From Sphaerisporangium sp. TRM90804 (GTDB lineage Bacteria; Actinomycetota; Actinomycetes; Streptosporangiales; Streptosporangiaceae): a DNA stretch of 64,000 nt. The notes under the pieces are model-generated. The model saw only the letters and a program-made list of their open reading frames with translations. It was not told where the DNA came from and ran no database searches. The stretch covers positions 310,001 through 374,000 of the forward strand of contig NZ_JARWAC010000011.1 in the NCBI RefSeq assembly GCF_029846175.1, read 5' to 3'. Numbering within the stretch: position 1 is the first letter of the stretch; each line of letters starts with the position of its first letter. A program made the position numbers and the translations under genes. Positions 20,616-28,317 of this stretch are shown piece by piece.

Positions 20616-20852
20616 ATGCCCGCGAGTGACATCCCCGTCCCCCAGGACCCCGCCGACGCCCTCGCGGCCGTGGTGGCGTTGCGGCGCCTGGCCGACCACC
20701 TGGAGGACGCCGCCGTCGAGCAGGCGATGCGCGCCGGCTGGGCCTGGCCGCAGGTCGCCGAGGCGCTCGGTGTGACCCGTCAGGCGGTGCACGGGAAGCA
20801 TGCCAAGCGGCTCATCGCCGCCGGCGTCAAGCTGAGGAGACGCTCACCGTGA
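20616..20852 (+). CDS. Small helix-turn-helix protein
   Basis: The 78-aa protein has an amphipathic helix (DALAAVVALRRLADHLEDAAVEQAM) and an HTH, WPQVAEALGVTRQAVHGKHAKRL (about residues 46-68), of the kind found in small Clp-N-associated regulators. No other domain is present. Its stop overlaps the start of the Clp-N gene by four bases, so the two are co-translated. The paired operator in its own promoter suggests autoregulation. Confidence 0.82.
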   Translation: MPASDIPVPQDPADALAAVVALRRLADHLEDAAVEQAMRAGWAWPQVAEALGVTRQAVHGKHAKRLIAAGVKLRRRSP

Positions 20853-21328
20853 ACGCGTTCGACAGGTATCTCCACACGGTCATCACGGAGGGGGCGGTCG
20901 AGGCGCGGCGGCAGGGGTCCGCCACGGTCGAGGCGCAGCACCTCCTGCTGGCCGTCGCGGCCCAGGAGGGCACCGCGCCGCAGCGGGTCCTGGCCTCGGC
21001 CGGCCTCGACCACCCGGCGATCGTGGCCGCTCTCGACCGGGAGTTCCACCACAGCCTCGCGGCGGTCGGGGTGTCCCGCGGCTCGTTCGGCCTCTCTCGC
21101 ACGGGCGGAACGTCCAAGCCGCCGGCCCTCGGCGCCACCGCCAGGCTGTCCCTTGAGCGGGCCTTCGGCGCGGCCTCCCGCAAGAAGGATCTGCGGCCGG
21201 CGCACGTACTGCTCGGAATCCTGCGGGGCGAGGTCGGCACGGTGGCACGCGCCCTGGCCCTGGCCGGCGTCGACCGCACCGACCTGCTGGCCCGCGTCCA
21301 AGGCGCCGTCACCGACGGCCCCGAGTGA
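20849..21328 (+). CDS. Clp N-terminal domain protein
   Basis: The 159-aa protein starts at a GTG that overlaps the HTH gene. It has two Clp-N repeats (FDRYLHTVITEGAVEARRQGSATVEAQHLLLAVAAQEG and ARLSLERAFGAASRKKDLRPAHVLLGILRGEVG) and no AAA+ module, so it is not a ClpC/ClpA ATPase. In actinomycetes such Clp-N-only proteins are found paired with small HTH proteins. A role as adaptor, substrate sensor or ligand-binding partner of the HTH protein is plausible but unproven. Confidence 0.88.
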   Translation: MNAFDRYLHTVITEGAVEARRQGSATVEAQHLLLAVAAQEGTAPQRVLASAGLDHPAIVAALDREFHHSLAAVGVSRGSFGLSRTGGTSKPPALGATARLSLERAFGAASRKKDLRPAHVLLGILRGEVGTVARALALAGVDRTDLLARVQGAVTDGPE

Positions 21329-21417
21329 CAGGCGGGCGCTCTCTTCACCGCTCCACGGGACGCCGCTCCGCGCTCGCGCACCTCTCTCCAGCCACCCCCA
21401 ACCATGACGGGACCGCC

Positions 21418-22458
21418 ATGACGACCTCCGACGCCTCCGCGACCGACCGCGACCGAGGCCATGCCGGCATCCAGCGCGCGCTCGACCGGGCCGTGGCCGA
21501 CGGCGGCGGCCCCGGCGTGGTCGCCGAACTCAGGGACGCCGATACGCCACCGTGGTTCGGCGCCGCGGGGGTGGCCGACCTGACGACCGGCCGCGGGCGC
21601 GGCCCGGGCGAGCACTTCCGCATCGGAAGCCTCACCAAGGCGTTCACCGGCACGGTGGTCCTGCAACTGGCGGCCGAGGCCGGGCTGACCCTGGACGACA
21701 CGGTCGCCAAGTGGCTGCCGGGCGTGGTGGAGCAGTACATCCCCGGCGCGGACGGCGCCGAGATCTCCGTCAGACGGCTGCTCAACCACACCAGCGGCCT
21801 CCCGGACGCCCTGCCCGGCGAGGAGCCCCCACCCGCCGAGGAACCCGGCGCGCGCTTCATCTACTCCAAGATCAACTACACCCTCGCCGGGATGATCGTC
21901 GAGGGGGTGACGGGCTCGACGCTCGCCGACGAGATCGACCGCCGCATCGCCCGCCCGCTGCGTCTGACGGGCACCTACCTCCCGGCCGCCGAGACGACGA
22001 TCCGCGACCCGCACCCCCGCCACTACTCCAGGCTGGGCGAGACCGGCCCCGAAGCGGAGATCCACGACGTGACCGAGATGGACGTGAGCTGGGCCTGGGC
22101 CGCCGGCGGGATGGTCTCCACGACCTCCGACCTGCACCGCTTCCTGAGCGCCCTGCTGCGCGGCCGCCTCCTGCCGCCCGCCGAGCAGAAGGAGATGTTC
22201 ACCACCGTCTCGACGGAGGGCGCCGACTGGGTCCCCGACACCGCGTACGGCCTCGGCGTCTACTCCCAGCGGCTCCCGTGCGGCGTCACGCTCTGGGGCG
22301 GCGGCGGCTCCATCCCCGGCTCGACGTCCTACGCGATGGGCGACCGCCAGGGCGCCCATCTGCTGGTGAGCAACCTGAACGGCGACTGGAACGACTACCT
22401 GGAGACCTTCACCGACCTCTTCGAGACGTGCTTTCGCCCGGCGCCCCCCCGATCGTGA
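21418..22458 (+). CDS. Beta-lactamase/DD-peptidase-family serine hydrolase
   Basis: The 346-aa protein has the penicillin-binding fold. GSLTKAFTG (residues 70-78) supplies the SxxK nucleophile. FIYSKINYTLAG occupies the YxN position but reads YSK, and WGGGGSIPGS stands where HxG/KTG would be. There is no signal peptide or lipobox, so it is probably cytoplasmic. That argues for an esterase or amidase rather than a cell-wall DD-peptidase. The start at 21418 gives the first family-like residues. The gene is monocistronic between the Clp-N gene and the large unknown operon. Confidence 0.83.
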   Translation: MTTSDASATDRDRGHAGIQRALDRAVADGGGPGVVAELRDADTPPWFGAAGVADLTTGRGRGPGEHFRIGSLTKAFTGTVVLQLAAEAGLTLDDTVAKWLPGVVEQYIPGADGAEISVRRLLNHTSGLPDALPGEEPPPAEEPGARFIYSKINYTLAGMIVEGVTGSTLADEIDRRIARPLRLTGTYLPAAETTIRDPHPRHYSRLGETGPEAEIHDVTEMDVSWAWAAGGMVSTTSDLHRFLSALLRGRLLPPAEQKEMFTTVSTEGADWVPDTAYGLGVYSQRLPCGVTLWGGGGSIPGSTSYAMGDRQGAHLLVSNLNGDWNDYLETFTDLFETCFRPAPPRS

Positions 22459-22550: not shown

Positions 22551-25500
22551 ATGCCCGACCACAACTCGCCGCGTCCGCCGGGGAACCACGACGACGCGCT
22601 GCCCGCCCTTCAGATCACCCGGCATTTCGACTTCGGGCAGTTCGTCTTCCTGCACTCGGAGTTCGAGGACGCGCGGGAAGAGCCGCAGCAGGTCGTGATC
22701 GACCCCACCGGCGGCAAGTACGCGGCCTACCACGAGTGGCTGGTCAAGGTGGGAAAGATCGAGCTGGCCAAGGTGGGTCCCCGGCCGCCGGAGCAGGTCC
22801 CGCATGAGCTGCGCGATCCCCTGGGCGGGCTGTCGCTGGACCGGCTCGTCGAGGGGCGCGAGCCTACCGCCTGGGCGCCGACCGAGCTCGTGATCGATTC
22901 GGCTCATCTCAAGGAGGTCGTGAGCACGAAGCAGGTCCCCTTCGAGGACAAGACGATCGTGCTGGAGCTCGACGAGCAGGCGGTGGCCTCCCTGAGCGCG
23001 GGCCGCAAGACCCTGGTCATGGCCGGGCCTCATGACGGCGGCACCCAGCCGTTCCTGGTGGAGCTGGCCGTCGACGTGCCGCTGGTGCAGCTGAGCGAGC
23101 CGAGCGTCGACAGGCTGCTCGCCGACGGCCGGGTCGACCAGGGCGCCGTCGTCCACGACGTCGAGCTGCACGAGAGCGTGACGCGAGCCCTGCTGGACGG
23201 CCGGCCGGCCGTCGCGTGGACGAAGGGGAGACAGGCCAGGCTCCTGCGGCTTGAGCCGCCGAGCAGGGGCGAGCGGGTGACGGCCGCCGAGGTCGTGGTG
23301 GACGACATGGCGGGCTTCCTGACCCGGCCCCTGGTGCCCGGCACCGATGGGCGTCCCGTCTCCGTCACCCTGTCGAGCGCGCACGTGAGCGCCCTTCGCC
23401 TGGACGGCACCGCCACCGTCACCGTCGGGGACGACCAGGTCACGCTGGTCGACGGGCGCCGGGAGGCCGCCGCGGCGCTCGACGGGCGGCGCCTGGCCAA
23501 CCGTGCGCTGGCCGATCGGATCCATCTGAAGGACCCGGCACCCGTCCAGGTCCTGGCGGACGGCGTGGCCAAGTGGACGAAGATCAGCGGGGCGCCCCCC
23601 GCGCCGGCCAATCCGATCGGGCTGCCCGTCGCGGTGTTCCTGCCCTGGCGGCAGACGTGGGCGCTGACCGGTTTCAGCCAGGGCGACCTGCGCAGCAGCC
23701 TGGCGCTGGCACCGCAGGAGGAGATGACCATCGAGGTGTCGAGCTGGGAGCGGCGGCTGCGCACCCTCGACCAGTCGTCCCAGACCGACGTCGAGCAGTC
23801 CTTCGAAAGCGTCCAGACCCAGCGCGACACCGACGACGTCTTCTCCGAGCTGACCAACCGGCACGACTTCGCGTGGCAGCTCGAAGGCTCGGTGGACGCC
23901 ACCTACAGCACCGGGAACGGGTCGATCACCGTGGGGGCCGGTGGGCAGGTGAGCGACACCAGCCATCTCCAGTCGATCGCCCGGGTCACCCAGCAGCGTG
24001 TCAAGGAGTCGACCCAGAAGTCCGCCGCCCGGGTCAGGGCGATCCGGACGACGCGCATCACCGACGCCGTCGAGACCGGCGAGCAGACCCGGGTCACCCG
24101 CAAGATCAAGAACGCCAACTTCTCCCGCACGCTCACCCTGGACTTCTTCGAGACCCTGGCCCACTACAGGGTCACGCTCGCCCCCCGGCCCGAGCGGATG
24201 ATGCTCGTCGCGCTGCTGCCCAACCCGCTGGCCACCAAGGAGTTCACCCGCGAGCTGGTGCGCCGGCACGAGTCGACGCTCCAGCGGGCGCTGCTCGACG
24301 GCTCCCTCAGCGAGGGGTTCGCCGCCTGCCGTAAGACCCGCGCCTACGAGAAGGCCAAGGAGATCATCTCTGATCTCGCCGCTCTTGGCGGCCAGGTCGA
24401 CAGCGCCGCCGACGGCCTCGGCAAGGGGAAGCGGGGCTCGGGCGTTCCCGTGCCCACCGCGCAGGAGAAGGCCGTGGTGGAGCTCCTCACGCACATCGCC
24501 GCCGCCTACAAGAAGTTCGAAGGCGCGACCCCGGACGCCGCGCTCAAGAGGATTCCCCCGGGTCAGACCATCCAGGACGAGGAGCGTGCGGACGCCCAGC
24601 ACTGGCTGTTCCTGCGGCTGGCCGGCAAGTACCTGCCCAGCGTGGTCGCGGGACTCGCGGGCCTCCCGAAGGTGCCGGCGATCACCGACGCCGAACCGCT
24701 CGTGGCCGTCATTCCCGCGCCCGGTTCGGCCACCACGCTCGAATCGCTCAACGACAAGTCCGACTGGGACAAGGAGCAGGCCGGCCTCGGCGTCAAGATC
24801 GGCGACCATGTCGGACGGGTCGACTGGAACTGGTCCAGCGGGCGGGCAAGGGAAGAGGGCCTCTACACCGCCGGTGACGGCGGGATCTCCGGCCTGCTCG
24901 GACGGCTGCAGCAGTCCTACGGCGCCTACCTGGCCAAGCGTTCCCAAGGCGACATGGAGGCCGAGAAGGAGGTCGTGATTGCCCAGGCGAACGCCCAGCA
25001 GGATCGGCTGAGCACCGCCGACCAGCTCGCGATGGCCTTCCCCCTGGACGAGCTGGCCGCCGCGCGGGAACGCGAAGAGGCGCTGCTCAGCCATCTCAAC
25101 GAGCACCCCGACCACTACAGCTTCGCGCTGTTCCAGGGGCTCTCGCCGGCCGAGCAGGCCCGTCACATCGAGGCCGGCTCCAAGGGGGCGCTCAAGGTCG
25201 GCATGTTCGAGCCCCGGGTGATCGCCGTCAACGGCCCCCACCTGGCGGTGCCGCTGGCGCCGCAGCCGGCCGGTGAGTTGCGCGACTTCGTCGAGGTGCT
25301 GCGCACCGGCTTCCGGGACGCCTTCGGCGGCACCGCCGACACCCCGGACGAGCTGGTCTTCCCCACCCCGGGCCTGACCATCAGCACCCGGCTGGGTGAG
25401 CGCACCACCGCCGAGGACTACGTCGAGCGTTCGCGGGCCGCCGAACTGCGCCGCCTGGTCGCCGAGGCCCGCGCGGCCGAGCTGGAGGCCGACCGGCGCA

Positions 25501-25589
25501 GAGCACGCATCAAGCGTGGGGACCTCGAAGATCCGGAGCTGTCGGAGACTCCCTTCAAAGTGAGCCTTGAGCAGCCGGGCGACGACTGA
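22551..25589 (+). CDS. Large uncharacterised protein, first gene of a three-gene coupled operon
   Basis: The protein is 1012 aa with GGGAGG six bases before the ATG. I do not recognise a named family. There is no signal peptide or membrane segment. Residues 1-340 are beta-rich. Residues 357-395 contain LPWRQTWALTGFSQGDLRSS then LALAPQEEMTIEVSSWERR. Residues 395-530 are Ser/Thr- and charge-rich (SFESVQTQRDTDDVFSELTN, then STGNGSITVGAGGQVSDTS, then RTTRITDAVETGEQTRVTRK), an alternating pattern reminiscent of long amphipathic beta-hairpins. A helical segment at about 800-850 and a charged C-terminal coiled-coil (about 960-995) follow. Its stop shares a TGATG with the next start. Confidence 0.8.
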   Translation: MPDHNSPRPPGNHDDALPALQITRHFDFGQFVFLHSEFEDAREEPQQVVIDPTGGKYAAYHEWLVKVGKIELAKVGPRPPEQVPHELRDPLGGLSLDRLVEGREPTAWAPTELVIDSAHLKEVVSTKQVPFEDKTIVLELDEQAVASLSAGRKTLVMAGPHDGGTQPFLVELAVDVPLVQLSEPSVDRLLADGRVDQGAVVHDVELHESVTRALLDGRPAVAWTKGRQARLLRLEPPSRGERVTAAEVVVDDMAGFLTRPLVPGTDGRPVSVTLSSAHVSALRLDGTATVTVGDDQVTLVDGRREAAAALDGRRLANRALADRIHLKDPAPVQVLADGVAKWTKISGAPPAPANPIGLPVAVFLPWRQTWALTGFSQGDLRSSLALAPQEEMTIEVSSWERRLRTLDQSSQTDVEQSFESVQTQRDTDDVFSELTNRHDFAWQLEGSVDATYSTGNGSITVGAGGQVSDTSHLQSIARVTQQRVKESTQKSAARVRAIRTTRITDAVETGEQTRVTRKIKNANFSRTLTLDFFETLAHYRVTLAPRPERMMLVALLPNPLATKEFTRELVRRHESTLQRALLDGSLSEGFAACRKTRAYEKAKEIISDLAALGGQVDSAADGLGKGKRGSGVPVPTAQEKAVVELLTHIAAAYKKFEGATPDAALKRIPPGQTIQDEERADAQHWLFLRLAGKYLPSVVAGLAGLPKVPAITDAEPLVAVIPAPGSATTLESLNDKSDWDKEQAGLGVKIGDHVGRVDWNWSSGRAREEGLYTAGDGGISGLLGRLQQSYGAYLAKRSQGDMEAEKEVVIAQANAQQDRLSTADQLAMAFPLDELAAAREREEALLSHLNEHPDHYSFALFQGLSPAEQARHIEAGSKGALKVGMFEPRVIAVNGPHLAVPLAPQPAGELRDFVEVLRTGFRDAFGGTADTPDELVFPTPGLTISTRLGERTTAEDYVERSRAAELRRLVAEARAAELEADRRRARIKRGDLEDPELSETPFKVSLEQPGDD

Positions 25590-27049
25590 TGGCCGGCGGG
25601 ACCACCTTGGGCGGCACCGGCGAGCCCGAGGTCGCGCGGCATCGTGACGGGCCCGCCGACGCCGCCTCGGTGCTGGTCGTGGTGGATCCCGGACCGGACA
25701 AGCCCCGAAGCGCCCAGGCCTCGCGCGAGCGGGACCACCTGGCCTACCGGGCGCCGCCGCGGCGTCCCCTGGTCACCGTCAACGGACGGCTGTACGAGCT
25801 GCCCCACGACGACGAGGCGGCCCTGCTCGACTTCCTGACCATGGCGTATCTCGTCTACGGCTGGGGCCCGATCGTCGCCGTCGGCCGGGAGCTGGCGCAG
25901 ATGCGCTTACTCAAGCTGCATCCCGGCCGGGGCGCGGCGTCCCCGCTGAGCCTGCGCATCGTCGACGTGGGACTGACGGAGATCTCACAGTGGATCCTCG
26001 CCTACGAGAAGGCCGCCCTGGAGTTCCGGCTGGAGGTGCTGCGCAAGGCCCGGAGCCTGGAGGACACGGCCAGGGACATCGTCCTGACGATGCTGCGGCG
26101 CAGCGCCGGGCGGGTCGTGGACGAGGCGATGCGCTACTTCCAGTGGAAGTCGCGCGACGGTGCGGTGGCGGCGCTCCAGGCCCTGCCCGCGGCCGAGATC
26201 CAGGAGGACGAGGAGGCGGTGCGCGACCTGCGCGACCGCCTGGAACGCCTCGCGCCGTCCGCCAGAACCGTTCAGGAGCTGAACCGGGAAGCGCAGGAGG
26301 AGGAGGCGGGACAGAGACGGTCTCTCGGCCGCGACCAGGTCGGCATCGTCTCGCCGACGAGGGTCGCCAAGCTGGAGAAGACGCGCGAGGCCGGTCGCCG
26401 GGCGCGCGACGCCTACGTGAAAGCCCTGTTCGACGAGGCGGCGGGCGCCGCCGTGCTCTTCCGCTTCGACCTGGAGTCCGTGGTGACGGCGGTCGACAAG
26501 CCGGCGGAGCTGAGCGGTCTCGTGTTCACCCGGCTCCAGGGCACGTGGAACGCAACCCAACGGCTCTACGAGCCCCTGCGCGCCAGACGCCCCGCCAGGG
26601 TCGTCGGCGAGCAGGACGTACGCGGGGGCGGCCTGCCCGAGCGGCTCATCGCGGCGAAGATCGGCGACTCGGTCTGGACGCACCGGAAGGTGGTCGCCGC
26701 CGCCCTGGACCGGCTGCCGGTGATCGACCGCGACCTTTACGAGCGCATGCTGGACAATCTCGCCGCCGCGCAGGCCGATGAGGAGATCGCCGGCACCCGC
26801 CTGGGCGTCCTGCGGGATCTCGGCCTCGGCGCGCTGACCATCGCGCTCACCGTCGTCTGCCCGCCGGCCGGCATCGCGCTGGACGTCGGCCTGTCGGTGG
26901 GCGACGTCGTCTCCACCGTCGCCGAGTACCTGGAGACGGCCGCCGAGAGCCTGTCCGATCTCGACCCGCGCGAGTGCCTGGCGGACGTCGAGCCGTCGGC
27001 CGTGCCGATCATCCTGTCGGTGGCGGGCGCGCTGCTGAGCGTCGGCTGA
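25589..27049 (+). CDS. Uncharacterised protein with coiled-coil middle and hydrophobic C-terminal segment
   Basis: The protein is 486 aa. The start codon overlaps the previous stop (TGATG), so the two are translationally coupled. Residues 1-60 are disordered-looking. The middle (about 120-330) is highly charged and helical, with likely coiled-coil around VRDLRDRLERLAPSARTVQE and VAKLEKTREAGRRARDAYVK. Residues about 410-445 form a long Gly/Ala/Val stretch, LGALTIALTVVCPPAGIALD, continuing VGLSVGDVV. Such stretches can insert into membranes and are frequent before toxin domains in polymorphic toxins, but no toxin domain follows here. I cannot assign a function. Confidence 0.78.
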   Translation: MAGGTTLGGTGEPEVARHRDGPADAASVLVVVDPGPDKPRSAQASRERDHLAYRAPPRRPLVTVNGRLYELPHDDEAALLDFLTMAYLVYGWGPIVAVGRELAQMRLLKLHPGRGAASPLSLRIVDVGLTEISQWILAYEKAALEFRLEVLRKARSLEDTARDIVLTMLRRSAGRVVDEAMRYFQWKSRDGAVAALQALPAAEIQEDEEAVRDLRDRLERLAPSARTVQELNREAQEEEAGQRRSLGRDQVGIVSPTRVAKLEKTREAGRRARDAYVKALFDEAAGAAVLFRFDLESVVTAVDKPAELSGLVFTRLQGTWNATQRLYEPLRARRPARVVGEQDVRGGGLPERLIAAKIGDSVWTHRKVVAAALDRLPVIDRDLYERMLDNLAAAQADEEIAGTRLGVLRDLGLGALTIALTVVCPPAGIALDVGLSVGDVVSTVAEYLETAAESLSDLDPRECLADVEPSAVPIILSVAGALLSVG

Positions 27050-28317
27050 TGGCTCCCAAGATCCCCGCGCGGATCCAGGAGCTGACCCAGTGGCTCGACA
27101 AGATGCACCACGTGGATCCCGACCTGATCGAGGAGCTGATCCTCAGCACGTCCCAGATCAGGTTGTTCCGCAAGGGCGCCCGTGGGGTCGAGACCGACCT
27201 GCTGATCGAACCGGTGATCCGCGCGCTCGGCGAAGACCTGCTGCGGGAGCATTCGGCGCTGGTGCCCCTGATGAAGGGCGTCTACAAGCAGTTCCAGCTC
27301 GCCGTCCGCCATCCGGGCAAGGCGTCGTTCGCCGTGGACGAGCTCCTGGAGCTGCGGCGCGCGTGGCAGCCCCTGAAGGCGGAGCTGAGCAGGAGCGAGG
27401 TCGAGGACGCGGGCGAGTTCGCCCGGTGGTTCGACCAGGAGGTGGAGGAGATGACGGCGATCGTCCGGCGCGGCGGGACGCCGGGGCGCGCCCCGCGCAA
27501 AGGTGTTCAGGCGGCCCCCCGGAAGGTCAGCCGGGAGGACGCGCGCGCCGCGTACAAGGTCTTCACCGGCGCGATGGCGGACTCCTCACCCGCCACGTTC
27601 GTCCTGATGCAGCAACTCAGCTTCTTCTTCCGGCCGAGCGACCCGATCTGGCTCTCCATGGCGGAGGCGGTCGCTTCGACCGGCGTGAAGAACGTCGACG
27701 CGCTGGCCGTCAGAATCCAGGGGATCCTCGGCGAGGGGCTGGCACTTCGCCATCCGTGGGTCTTGCATCTGATGTCCGAAGGCGCCAGACGGGCGCAGAG
27801 ACTGGCGGGTCTGCTCGGCCCGGAATGGAAGATCGTCTTCGTGGAGGGGGCGGCCTACGCGAGCAAGACCTCAGGCGCCGGGCTGGGGCAGCTCTACGAC
27901 GGCTCGATCTGGATCGTCCGGAAAGGGCAGGGCGGGGAGCCGCTGGAGGCCGCGCCGGTCTGGGTGCTGGAGGTCAAGAGCGGGCGGGTGTCGGAGGCGA
28001 TGAGGCAGATCGCCAAGGGCTTCGTGCGGGAGCTGGACAAGACGGTCCGGTTGCCCCGGCCGGACGGCTCGACCGCCGAGTGCACCGTCAGGAGCCTGCG
28101 CGCCCTGCTCGGGGACAAGGCCGATCTGGTCAAGGACGAGATCGGCGAGGCCTCGACCCAGCGGGTGCTCGTCGCGCCACGCGCCCCCGGCGACCGCTCC
28201 GTGCGGCACCTGCCGAAGGGGGTGGCGGTCGACTACATCATGTCGTTCATGTCCCAGCGGGATATGCGGACCGTGTCGCGGGCCTTGGCGGCGGCCCATG
28301 CGAAGGTTGCCCGGTAG
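27049..28317 (+). CDS. Uncharacterised protein with PD-(D/E)XK nuclease-like core
   Basis: The protein is 422 aa. Its start again overlaps the previous stop (TGATG). The N-terminal half is helical with no recognised motif (residues 1-150), and residues 165-250 are helical. In the C-terminal part LYDGSIWIV (Asp284) is followed by PVWVLEVKSG (Glu308-x-Lys310) and then AMRQIAKGF (Gln320). That is the D...ExK...Q order of the restriction-endonuclease-like fold. It is therefore a candidate DNA or RNA nuclease. What directs it, and how its two partner proteins contribute, is unknown. Confidence 0.78.
   Translation: MAPKIPARIQELTQWLDKMHHVDPDLIEELILSTSQIRLFRKGARGVETDLLIEPVIRALGEDLLREHSALVPLMKGVYKQFQLAVRHPGKASFAVDELLELRRAWQPLKAELSRSEVEDAGEFARWFDQEVEEMTAIVRRGGTPGRAPRKGVQAAPRKVSREDARAAYKVFTGAMADSSPATFVLMQQLSFFFRPSDPIWLSMAEAVASTGVKNVDALAVRIQGILGEGLALRHPWVLHLMSEGARRAQRLAGLLGPEWKIVFVEGAAYASKTSGAGLGQLYDGSIWIVRKGQGGEPLEAAPVWVLEVKSGRVSEAMRQIAKGFVRELDKTVRLPRPDGSTAECTVRSLRALLGDKADLVKDEIGEASTQRVLVAPRAPGDRSVRHLPKGVAVDYIMSFMSQRDMRTVSRALAAAHAKVAR

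Follow-up and report, generated by a model that had tools for sequence, protein, structure and literature searches.

The described systems closest to the operon analyzed here are the PD-(D/E)XK nuclease superfamily, polymorphic or colicin-like nuclease toxins, extracellular contractile injection systems, lectin-like bacteriocins, and Family 1 encapsulins. The operon, at positions 22551 to 28317 of a 64,000-nucleotide (nt) stretch (hereafter, the window) of contig NZ_JARWAC010000011.1 from the actinobacterium Sphaerisporangium sp. TRM90804, comprises three genes denoted P1, P2, and P3, with related loci in Miltoncostaea oceani, Streptomyces mesophilus, and two further actinobacterial genomes, G976 and G489. 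PD-(D/E)XK enzymes carry the pattern D...(E/Q)xK, in which Q in place of E is tolerated and R in place of K is not usual. Compared with the RecB/Cas4-like branch, P3 likewise contains D-x(19-25)-(E/Q)xK in four of its five copies, each of which also has a Q 10–12 residues past the motif, but differs in having no profile match to superfamily members in Pfam, NCBIfam, PHROGs, or the Protein Data Bank (PDB) and in carrying ExR in S. mesophilus. As in polymorphic and colicin-like toxins, a single M. oceani gene joins a helical part containing a hydrophobic stretch with a nuclease-like part; unlike in those toxins, no immunity gene was seen at the operon, no known trafficking domain is present, and the payload is a separate gene in four of the five loci. 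Among the relatives of a module within P1 are large, multi-domain proteins with swappable enzymes, a feature in common with extracellular contractile injection systems. However, the sheath gene (PF04984) was found in only one of four host genomes, that of S. mesophilus, where it is on another contig; the other three (the window genome, G976, and G489) lack it, so contractile injection was rejected as a general route. Lectin-like bacteriocins are said to need no immunity factor (available text of PMC6465234), and one P1-module relative matches the putidacin L1 lectin family, but P1 itself has no lectin match. A gene of the shell family of Family 1 encapsulins (as described in the available text of PMC8346489) adjoins the operon in one species, but none was found at the other four copies, and no cargo tag was found.

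The three-gene system is real, conserved, and outside every family library used. P1, P2, and P3 gave no match below an expectation value (E) of 0.03 in Pfam, NCBIfam, PADLOC, and PHROGs (best E 0.033), in line with a note made previously from the DNA letters alone (the earlier note), which could not assign any of the three products to a family. Literature searches on encapsulins, S. mesophilus, and lectin-like bacteriocins with tectonin brought up no description of the operon, which may have been published under other names. The explanation that we place first, tentatively and as a possibility short of probable, is that the operon encodes a heteromeric effector complex used in antagonism, with P1 as the carrier, P2 as a membrane adaptor, and P3 as a nuclease-like payload. 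If true, this would be a new multi-subunit nuclease effector. The module in its large subunit is common to dozens of large unnamed proteins from actinobacteria and also occurs in a cyanobacterium, proteobacteria, and haloarchaea; one solved member would provide the first functional handle on this group.

Conserved gene order of the P1-P2-P3 operon

Three long genes joined by two TGATG overlaps had been reported in the earlier note, and both the gene sizes and the overlaps are as claimed (aa, amino acids; pI, isoelectric point):

22551..25589, + strand: P1, 1012 aa, with relatives over most of its length in four other loci
25587..25591, + strand: TGATG overlap of P1 and P2
25589..27049, + strand: P2, 486 aa, helical-looking
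27047..27051, + strand: TGATG overlap of P2 and P3
27049..28317, + strand: P3, 422 aa, basic (pI 9.6), with a nuclease-like C-terminal half

All three genes are encoded in a single direction. The mechanically called reading frame of the third gene begins at GTG 26974; the coupled start is ATG 27049, which yields the 422-aa product. Overlap alone proves little because four other gene pairs called in the window also overlap by 1 or 4 nt, and such short overlaps are common in prokaryotes (available text of PMC6728339). The conserved order in four other loci is stronger evidence than the overlaps that the set exceeds chance.

Relatives of P1 over most of its length are encoded on an 816-kilobase (kb) plasmid of M. 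oceani (locus L008, 33% identity), in S. mesophilus (L025, 35%), in G489, a genome from the same class as the window (L063, 35%), and in G976, from the same genus as S. mesophilus (L106, 68%). Locus L105 of genome G1071 is the same contig as L025 and was counted once. The other two proteins are also recognizable in L106 (48% identity for P2 and 43% for a piece of P3) and in L063 (E 6e-15 for P2 and 9e-7 for P3, in a small-scale comparison run without composition correction). For L025 and L008, the P2 and P3 slots are too diverged for plain comparison and were examined with three-row profiles, using as background 93 other proteins that had been called in 17 sequences. The P2 profile scored 31.7 with the P2 slot of L025 and 27.7 with the N-terminal half of the L008 gene (best background 24.2), and the P3 profile scored 25.1 with the P3 slot of L025 and 24.8 with the C-terminal half of the L008 gene (best background 23.8); wrong slots scored 13.9–16.6, within the background. 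Because the right slots exceed the background and the wrong ones do not, the order P1-P2-P3 is best read as conserved in all five loci, with the 947-aa M. oceani gene being a probable P2-P3 fusion, that is, P1-(P2P3). A search for conserved three-gene synteny, which the earlier note had named as a check, thus recovered P1 followed by the same two slots in four other actinobacterial loci, P2 and P3 being apparently fused in one.

P1 and P2 are joined by TGATG in the window, L106, and L025 and are separated by 12 nt in L063 and by 65 nt in L008; P2 and P3 are joined by TGATG in the window, L106, and L063, by GTGA in L025, and by the apparent fusion in L008. The four unfused loci have eight junctions, and the genes accordingly overlap by 1 or 4 nt at seven of these. 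Gene pairs with overlaps of this size often encode subunits of heteromeric complexes (available text of PMC10666635). Formation of a complex by P1, P2, and P3 appears fairly probable, and the apparent P2-P3 fusion, together with the close Streptomyces relative, makes the interaction and catalysis claims directly testable.

The nuclease-like protein P3 and the helical-looking protein P2

The D...ExK signature ascribed to the third protein in the earlier note is present and is exact in the closest relative, L106. The residues concerned are:

27898..27900, + strand: P3 D284 of the G.GL.QLYD motif
27970..27978, + strand: P3 E308-V-K310 (EVK in L106, QFK in L063, QVK in L008, and ESR in L025)
28006..28008, + strand: P3 Q320, unchanged across all four rows of alignments A13 and A17, neither of which includes L025

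The common arrangement is G-x-G-(L/F)...(L/F)-(Y/R)-D, followed 19–25 residues on (spacing by eye) by EVK, EVK, QFK, QVK, and ESR in the window, L106, L063, L008, and L025, respectively. In the L008 copy, the D is shifted and the glycine motif is altered. Thus, D occurs with ExK in two of the five copies, with QxK in two (with the shifted D in L008 and an unstable alignment in L063), and with ExR in one. Few columns are invariant in the aligned C-terminal half of P3; in A13 and A17, they include K310 and Q320. Judging from these motifs, P3 is probably of nuclease descent; nuclease activity is plausible for the window protein and doubtful for that of S. mesophilus. A P3 profile matched only one of 392 genomes of the genus Streptomyces, G976, which also encodes P1. 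A weak match (E 1.5e-4, aa 52-154) was detected on contig C117 of genome G375, whose P1-module protein is encoded on contig C52.

For the second gene, the earlier note had described a C-terminal stretch resembling a membrane-insertion segment. Two such stretches are present, both with a mean hydropathy of at least 1.5:

26801..26881, + strand: P2 aa 405-431, hydrophobic stretch
26987..27043, + strand: P2 aa 467-485, terminal hydrophobic stretch

A hydrophobic stretch lies in the C-terminal third of all five P2 slots, and in the L008 gene, it precedes the P3 part. On hydropathy only, these stretches would suit membrane contact. No PDB chain matched P2 below E 0.7.

P1 and its central module

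P1 is an acidic (pI 5.4), soluble protein with no predicted membrane stretch and no PDB match better than E 0.16. The following regions were delineated:

22926..23468, + strand: P1 aa 126-306, three divergent copies of a repeat of about 50 aa in the N-terminal third (hhalign)
23640..24185, + strand: P1 aa 364-545, central undescribed module (about 180 aa) common to large bacterial and haloarchaeal proteins
23865..23948, + strand: P1 aa 439-466, Gly/Ser/Thr-rich, beta-alternating tongue between helix-like stretches (column-averaged hydropathy, 59 rows)
25083..25433, + strand: P1 aa 845-961, conserved C-terminal region (HLN.H..YY..LFQ ... FEPRV..NG..LAVPL ... PTPG), partly common to giant protease and hydrolase-like proteins

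In hhalign comparisons, repeats A and B matched with a probability of 92% (E 5e-7), A and C with 40%, and B and C with 22%, against less than 1% in three control comparisons with another block. The alternating S/T-rich region mentioned in the earlier note falls within the central module, where it corresponds to the tongue flanked by helix-like stretches (p = 0.001, 0.024, and 0.041 in the sequence windows starting at residues 439, 446, and 453, uncorrected for 34 windows). The profile suggests a layout of strand, helix, Gly/Ser/Thr-rich tongue, helix, and strand.

After removal of duplicates, weak matches, and matches covering fewer than 150 profile positions, the module alignment retained 59 rows, most of them actinobacterial, others being from two proteobacteria, one haloarchaeon, and one cyanobacterium. 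The module was also matched on a second Haladaptatus plasmid. Pfam and NCBIfam searches of 35 selected members, some truncated where a short locus ended, identified tectonin in five, Peptidase_C70 (AvrRpt2-like) in three, OmpA in two, and DUF2272 and the putidacin L1 lectin-like bacteriocin family in one each. Two giant proteins of genome G036, one with a C70 protease at its end, have two regions that are colinear with P1, and part of the C-terminal region of P1 recurs in both. A P1-like core thus appears with an enzyme fused to it in cis elsewhere, and the enzyme-like subunit here is a separate gene.

Several loci with module proteins were noted. Tandem giant module proteins, of 1774–1863 aa and 1353–1368 aa, are encoded at L064:7701-17563, L065:1499-11224, and L018:6642-16661; the larger member has a weak PETase-like match in L018, the smaller one has a C-terminal AvrRpt2-like protease in L018 and L064, and a gene of about 100 aa lies between the two in L064 and L065. 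A haloarchaeal plasmid protein (L012:7647-11357) combines the P1 module with a C-terminal DUF2272 domain, and the N-terminus of the module protein at L070:8620-10779 resembles, by eye, a bulb-type mannose-binding lectin. In two genomes from the window's genus (L019:9936-13911 and L020:7059-11061), the gene after that of the module protein encodes a 425-aa product, near-identical in the two cases; it had no significant Pfam match when tested for L019, and the pair is possibly another two-gene system. The 425-aa gene beside the module protein in G006 and G008 starts like P3, yet gave no match to P3 and was rejected as a P3 homolog. Also rejected, as a chance similarity, was a weak match to P1 in G026; the protein concerned looks, by eye, like an AMP-dependent ligase.

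Proposed function

Complex formation, nuclease activity, membrane action, and an antagonistic role, as we infer them, would combine as follows. P1 would serve as the carrier or scaffold, a large soluble protein with a central module of helix, tongue, and helix that may be membrane active or target engaging; a pore-forming or translocating role for this module is a guess. P2 would be a helical adaptor that touches or crosses a membrane with its hydrophobic C-terminal stretches and works in direct contact with P3. The payload, P3, would be a nuclease of the PD-(D/E)XK kind that is brought to another cell; in the producer, the complex, and not an immunity protein, would keep it from doing harm. 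No immunity gene was found directly downstream of the operon: in each of the five loci, the first called or annotated gene beyond P3 has the opposite orientation (gene calls are heuristic, and the L008 plasmid table is incomplete). We favor P1 as an effector carrier mainly because a similar core occurs with a fused enzyme elsewhere. The leaning toward antagonism likewise comes from the domain company of the P1 module, and antagonism is slightly favored over phage defense.

A number of observations weigh against this proposal. P3 showed no significant nuclease-family match in Pfam, NCBIfam, PADLOC, PHROGs, or PDB, where no chain scored below E 0.2. The L063 alignment around QFK is unstable: K310, although invariant in A13 and A17, is not so in the three-row alignment A18. 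S. mesophilus P3, with its ExR, may be inactive, and the P3 profile scan of the 392 Streptomyces genomes missed it. The assignment of the diverged slots relies on a profile test that is calibrated but modest, with a narrow margin for P3, and the hhalign probabilities for the L025 and L008 slots were low (1–10%, vs 0.1% for one wrong pair). Membrane action is likewise deduced from hydropathy only. At least 13 of the 35 module proteins lack a Pfam match, and the helix-hairpin-helix (ComEA-like) domains in three and type II secretion domains in one are not suggestive of antagonism. Inspection by eye revealed no signal peptide in the operon proteins, and no secretion gene lies beside the operon. 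Some of the same observations would suit an ordinary, unnamed operon with a metabolic or structural role, in which the resemblance to ExK arose by accident: no significant nuclease match was found anywhere, the PD-(D/E)XK motifs are short, and one locus carries ExR. We consider this unlikely, given that the patchy distribution is unlike that of housekeeping genes and that D and (E/Q)xK recur in four of the five diverged copies (with the D shifted in one).

An extension of the effector complex reading, which we regard as improbable, would place the P1 module at the heart of a hitherto undescribed group of membrane-active carriers in bacteria and haloarchaea with exchangeable payloads, namely, proteases, hydrolases, or lectin parts in cis or the P2-P3 nuclease in trans, with an encapsulin-type shell in one species.

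Distribution and apparent horizontal transfer

P1 over most of its length was detected in 2 of 394 genomes of the window's class (G000 and G489; any match in 8), in 1 of 250 genomes of its family (G000; any match in 21), and in 2 of 392 genomes of the S. mesophilus genus (any match in 25). Ten genus mates of the window have at most a module match and no fuller P1. These counts are lower bounds because the P1 profile searches scored no more than the two or three top candidates in each genome. A scan of 84,980 species genomes with two short patterns returned one relative. In three scans of viral contigs, no relative of P1 or of the module was found; one human-faecal record named "Bacteriophage sp.," without annotation, gave a 23% module match.

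The P1 proteins of the window and G976 are 68% identical, yet the G976 and S. mesophilus copies, although from the same genus, share only 35%; the simplest reading of these relationships is that the operon has moved horizontally. The three-gene set is rare, patchy, and apparently mobile. In L063, a Tn3 transposase gene is located approximately 2.4 kb upstream, and a gene that by eye resembles a tyrosine recombinase is located downstream.

Such a rare and patchy set, which resides on a megaplasmid in the case of L008 and close to a Tn3 transposase gene in that of L063, would also fit intracellular defense against phages or plasmids, in which P1 would sense the invader, P2 would anchor the system at the membrane, and P3 would cut nucleic acid when activated, in the manner of abortive infection. 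The nuclease-like subunit and the lack of a visible immunity gene or export signal are in keeping with this alternative, as are matches of some neighbors to PADLOC models. These matches were obtained with a set of 54 neighboring proteins of the five loci (A15), 44 PADLOC families being matched in some of them (E up to 1e-4), without a background set. Omitted from A15 were one locus-end gene each of L106, L008, and L025 (in the latter two, the reference held stops), the encapsulin of S. mesophilus, and some of the window's neighbors. Among the 25 families listed, PDC-S19 was matched strongly by one protein (9e-84), which we take to be the DUF3644 gene of L008, as the tally names no members; mad3 was matched by two proteins, and HamB/BrxH helicases, mad2, mad8, PDC-M23B, AriA, and SngC by one each. 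However, PADLOC gave no match to P1, P2, or P3; no complete known defense system was recognized beside the operon among the matches listed, in the same comparison without background; and several module relatives contain lectin-type, protease, or OmpA domains. Overall, we view a defense function as somewhat unlikely.

The earlier note had suggested a defense or antagonism system or a cell-surface assembly. The undescribed three-gene system with a conserved order, a nuclease-like P3, and a membrane-active-looking P2 stands, but the defense setting was not established. A cell-surface assembly found no direct support, OmpA domains being present in 2 of the 35 module relatives.

Neighboring genes

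In S. mesophilus, a gene of the encapsulin family (L025:6804-7934; PF04454, E 3.6e-23) ends 3 nt before P1, and its product shares about 28% identity with annotated plasmid-borne encapsulins. This arrangement raises the alternative that P1, P2, and P3 are cargo or partners of an encapsulin-type shell whose gene was lost in most lineages. We judge this alternative very unlikely: the shell gene adjoins the operon in one of the five loci, with no encapsulin-like protein in the others over 9 kb; PF04454 is absent from the window genome and, in G976, is on another contig; and the one cargo-loading peptide pattern used matched none of 12 proteins. Encapsulin partnership as a general rule was therefore rejected, and the S. 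mesophilus gene represents either a chance insertion or a special partnership.

Around the operon in the window, no phage-tail, CRISPR, or secretion gene was found among ten scanned neighbors, as the earlier note had stated. The guanine-plus-cytosine content at third codon positions is 0.91–0.93 for the three operon genes (0.91 for the longer reading frame of the third gene). A purine-rich GGGAGG site precedes P1 (by eye), and a consensus search found no sigma-70-type promoter for the operon. Downstream of P3, genes for a methyltransferase and an ABC-2 permease are on the opposite strand. Upstream, a Clp_N protein gene is followed by that of a beta-lactamase-family hydrolase, which ends 92 nt before P1. 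Together with a gene for a 78-aa unknown protein, these two form a group of three genes with 4-nt overlaps (window positions 20616-22458), in the order 78-aa protein, Clp_N protein, and beta-lactamase-family hydrolase.

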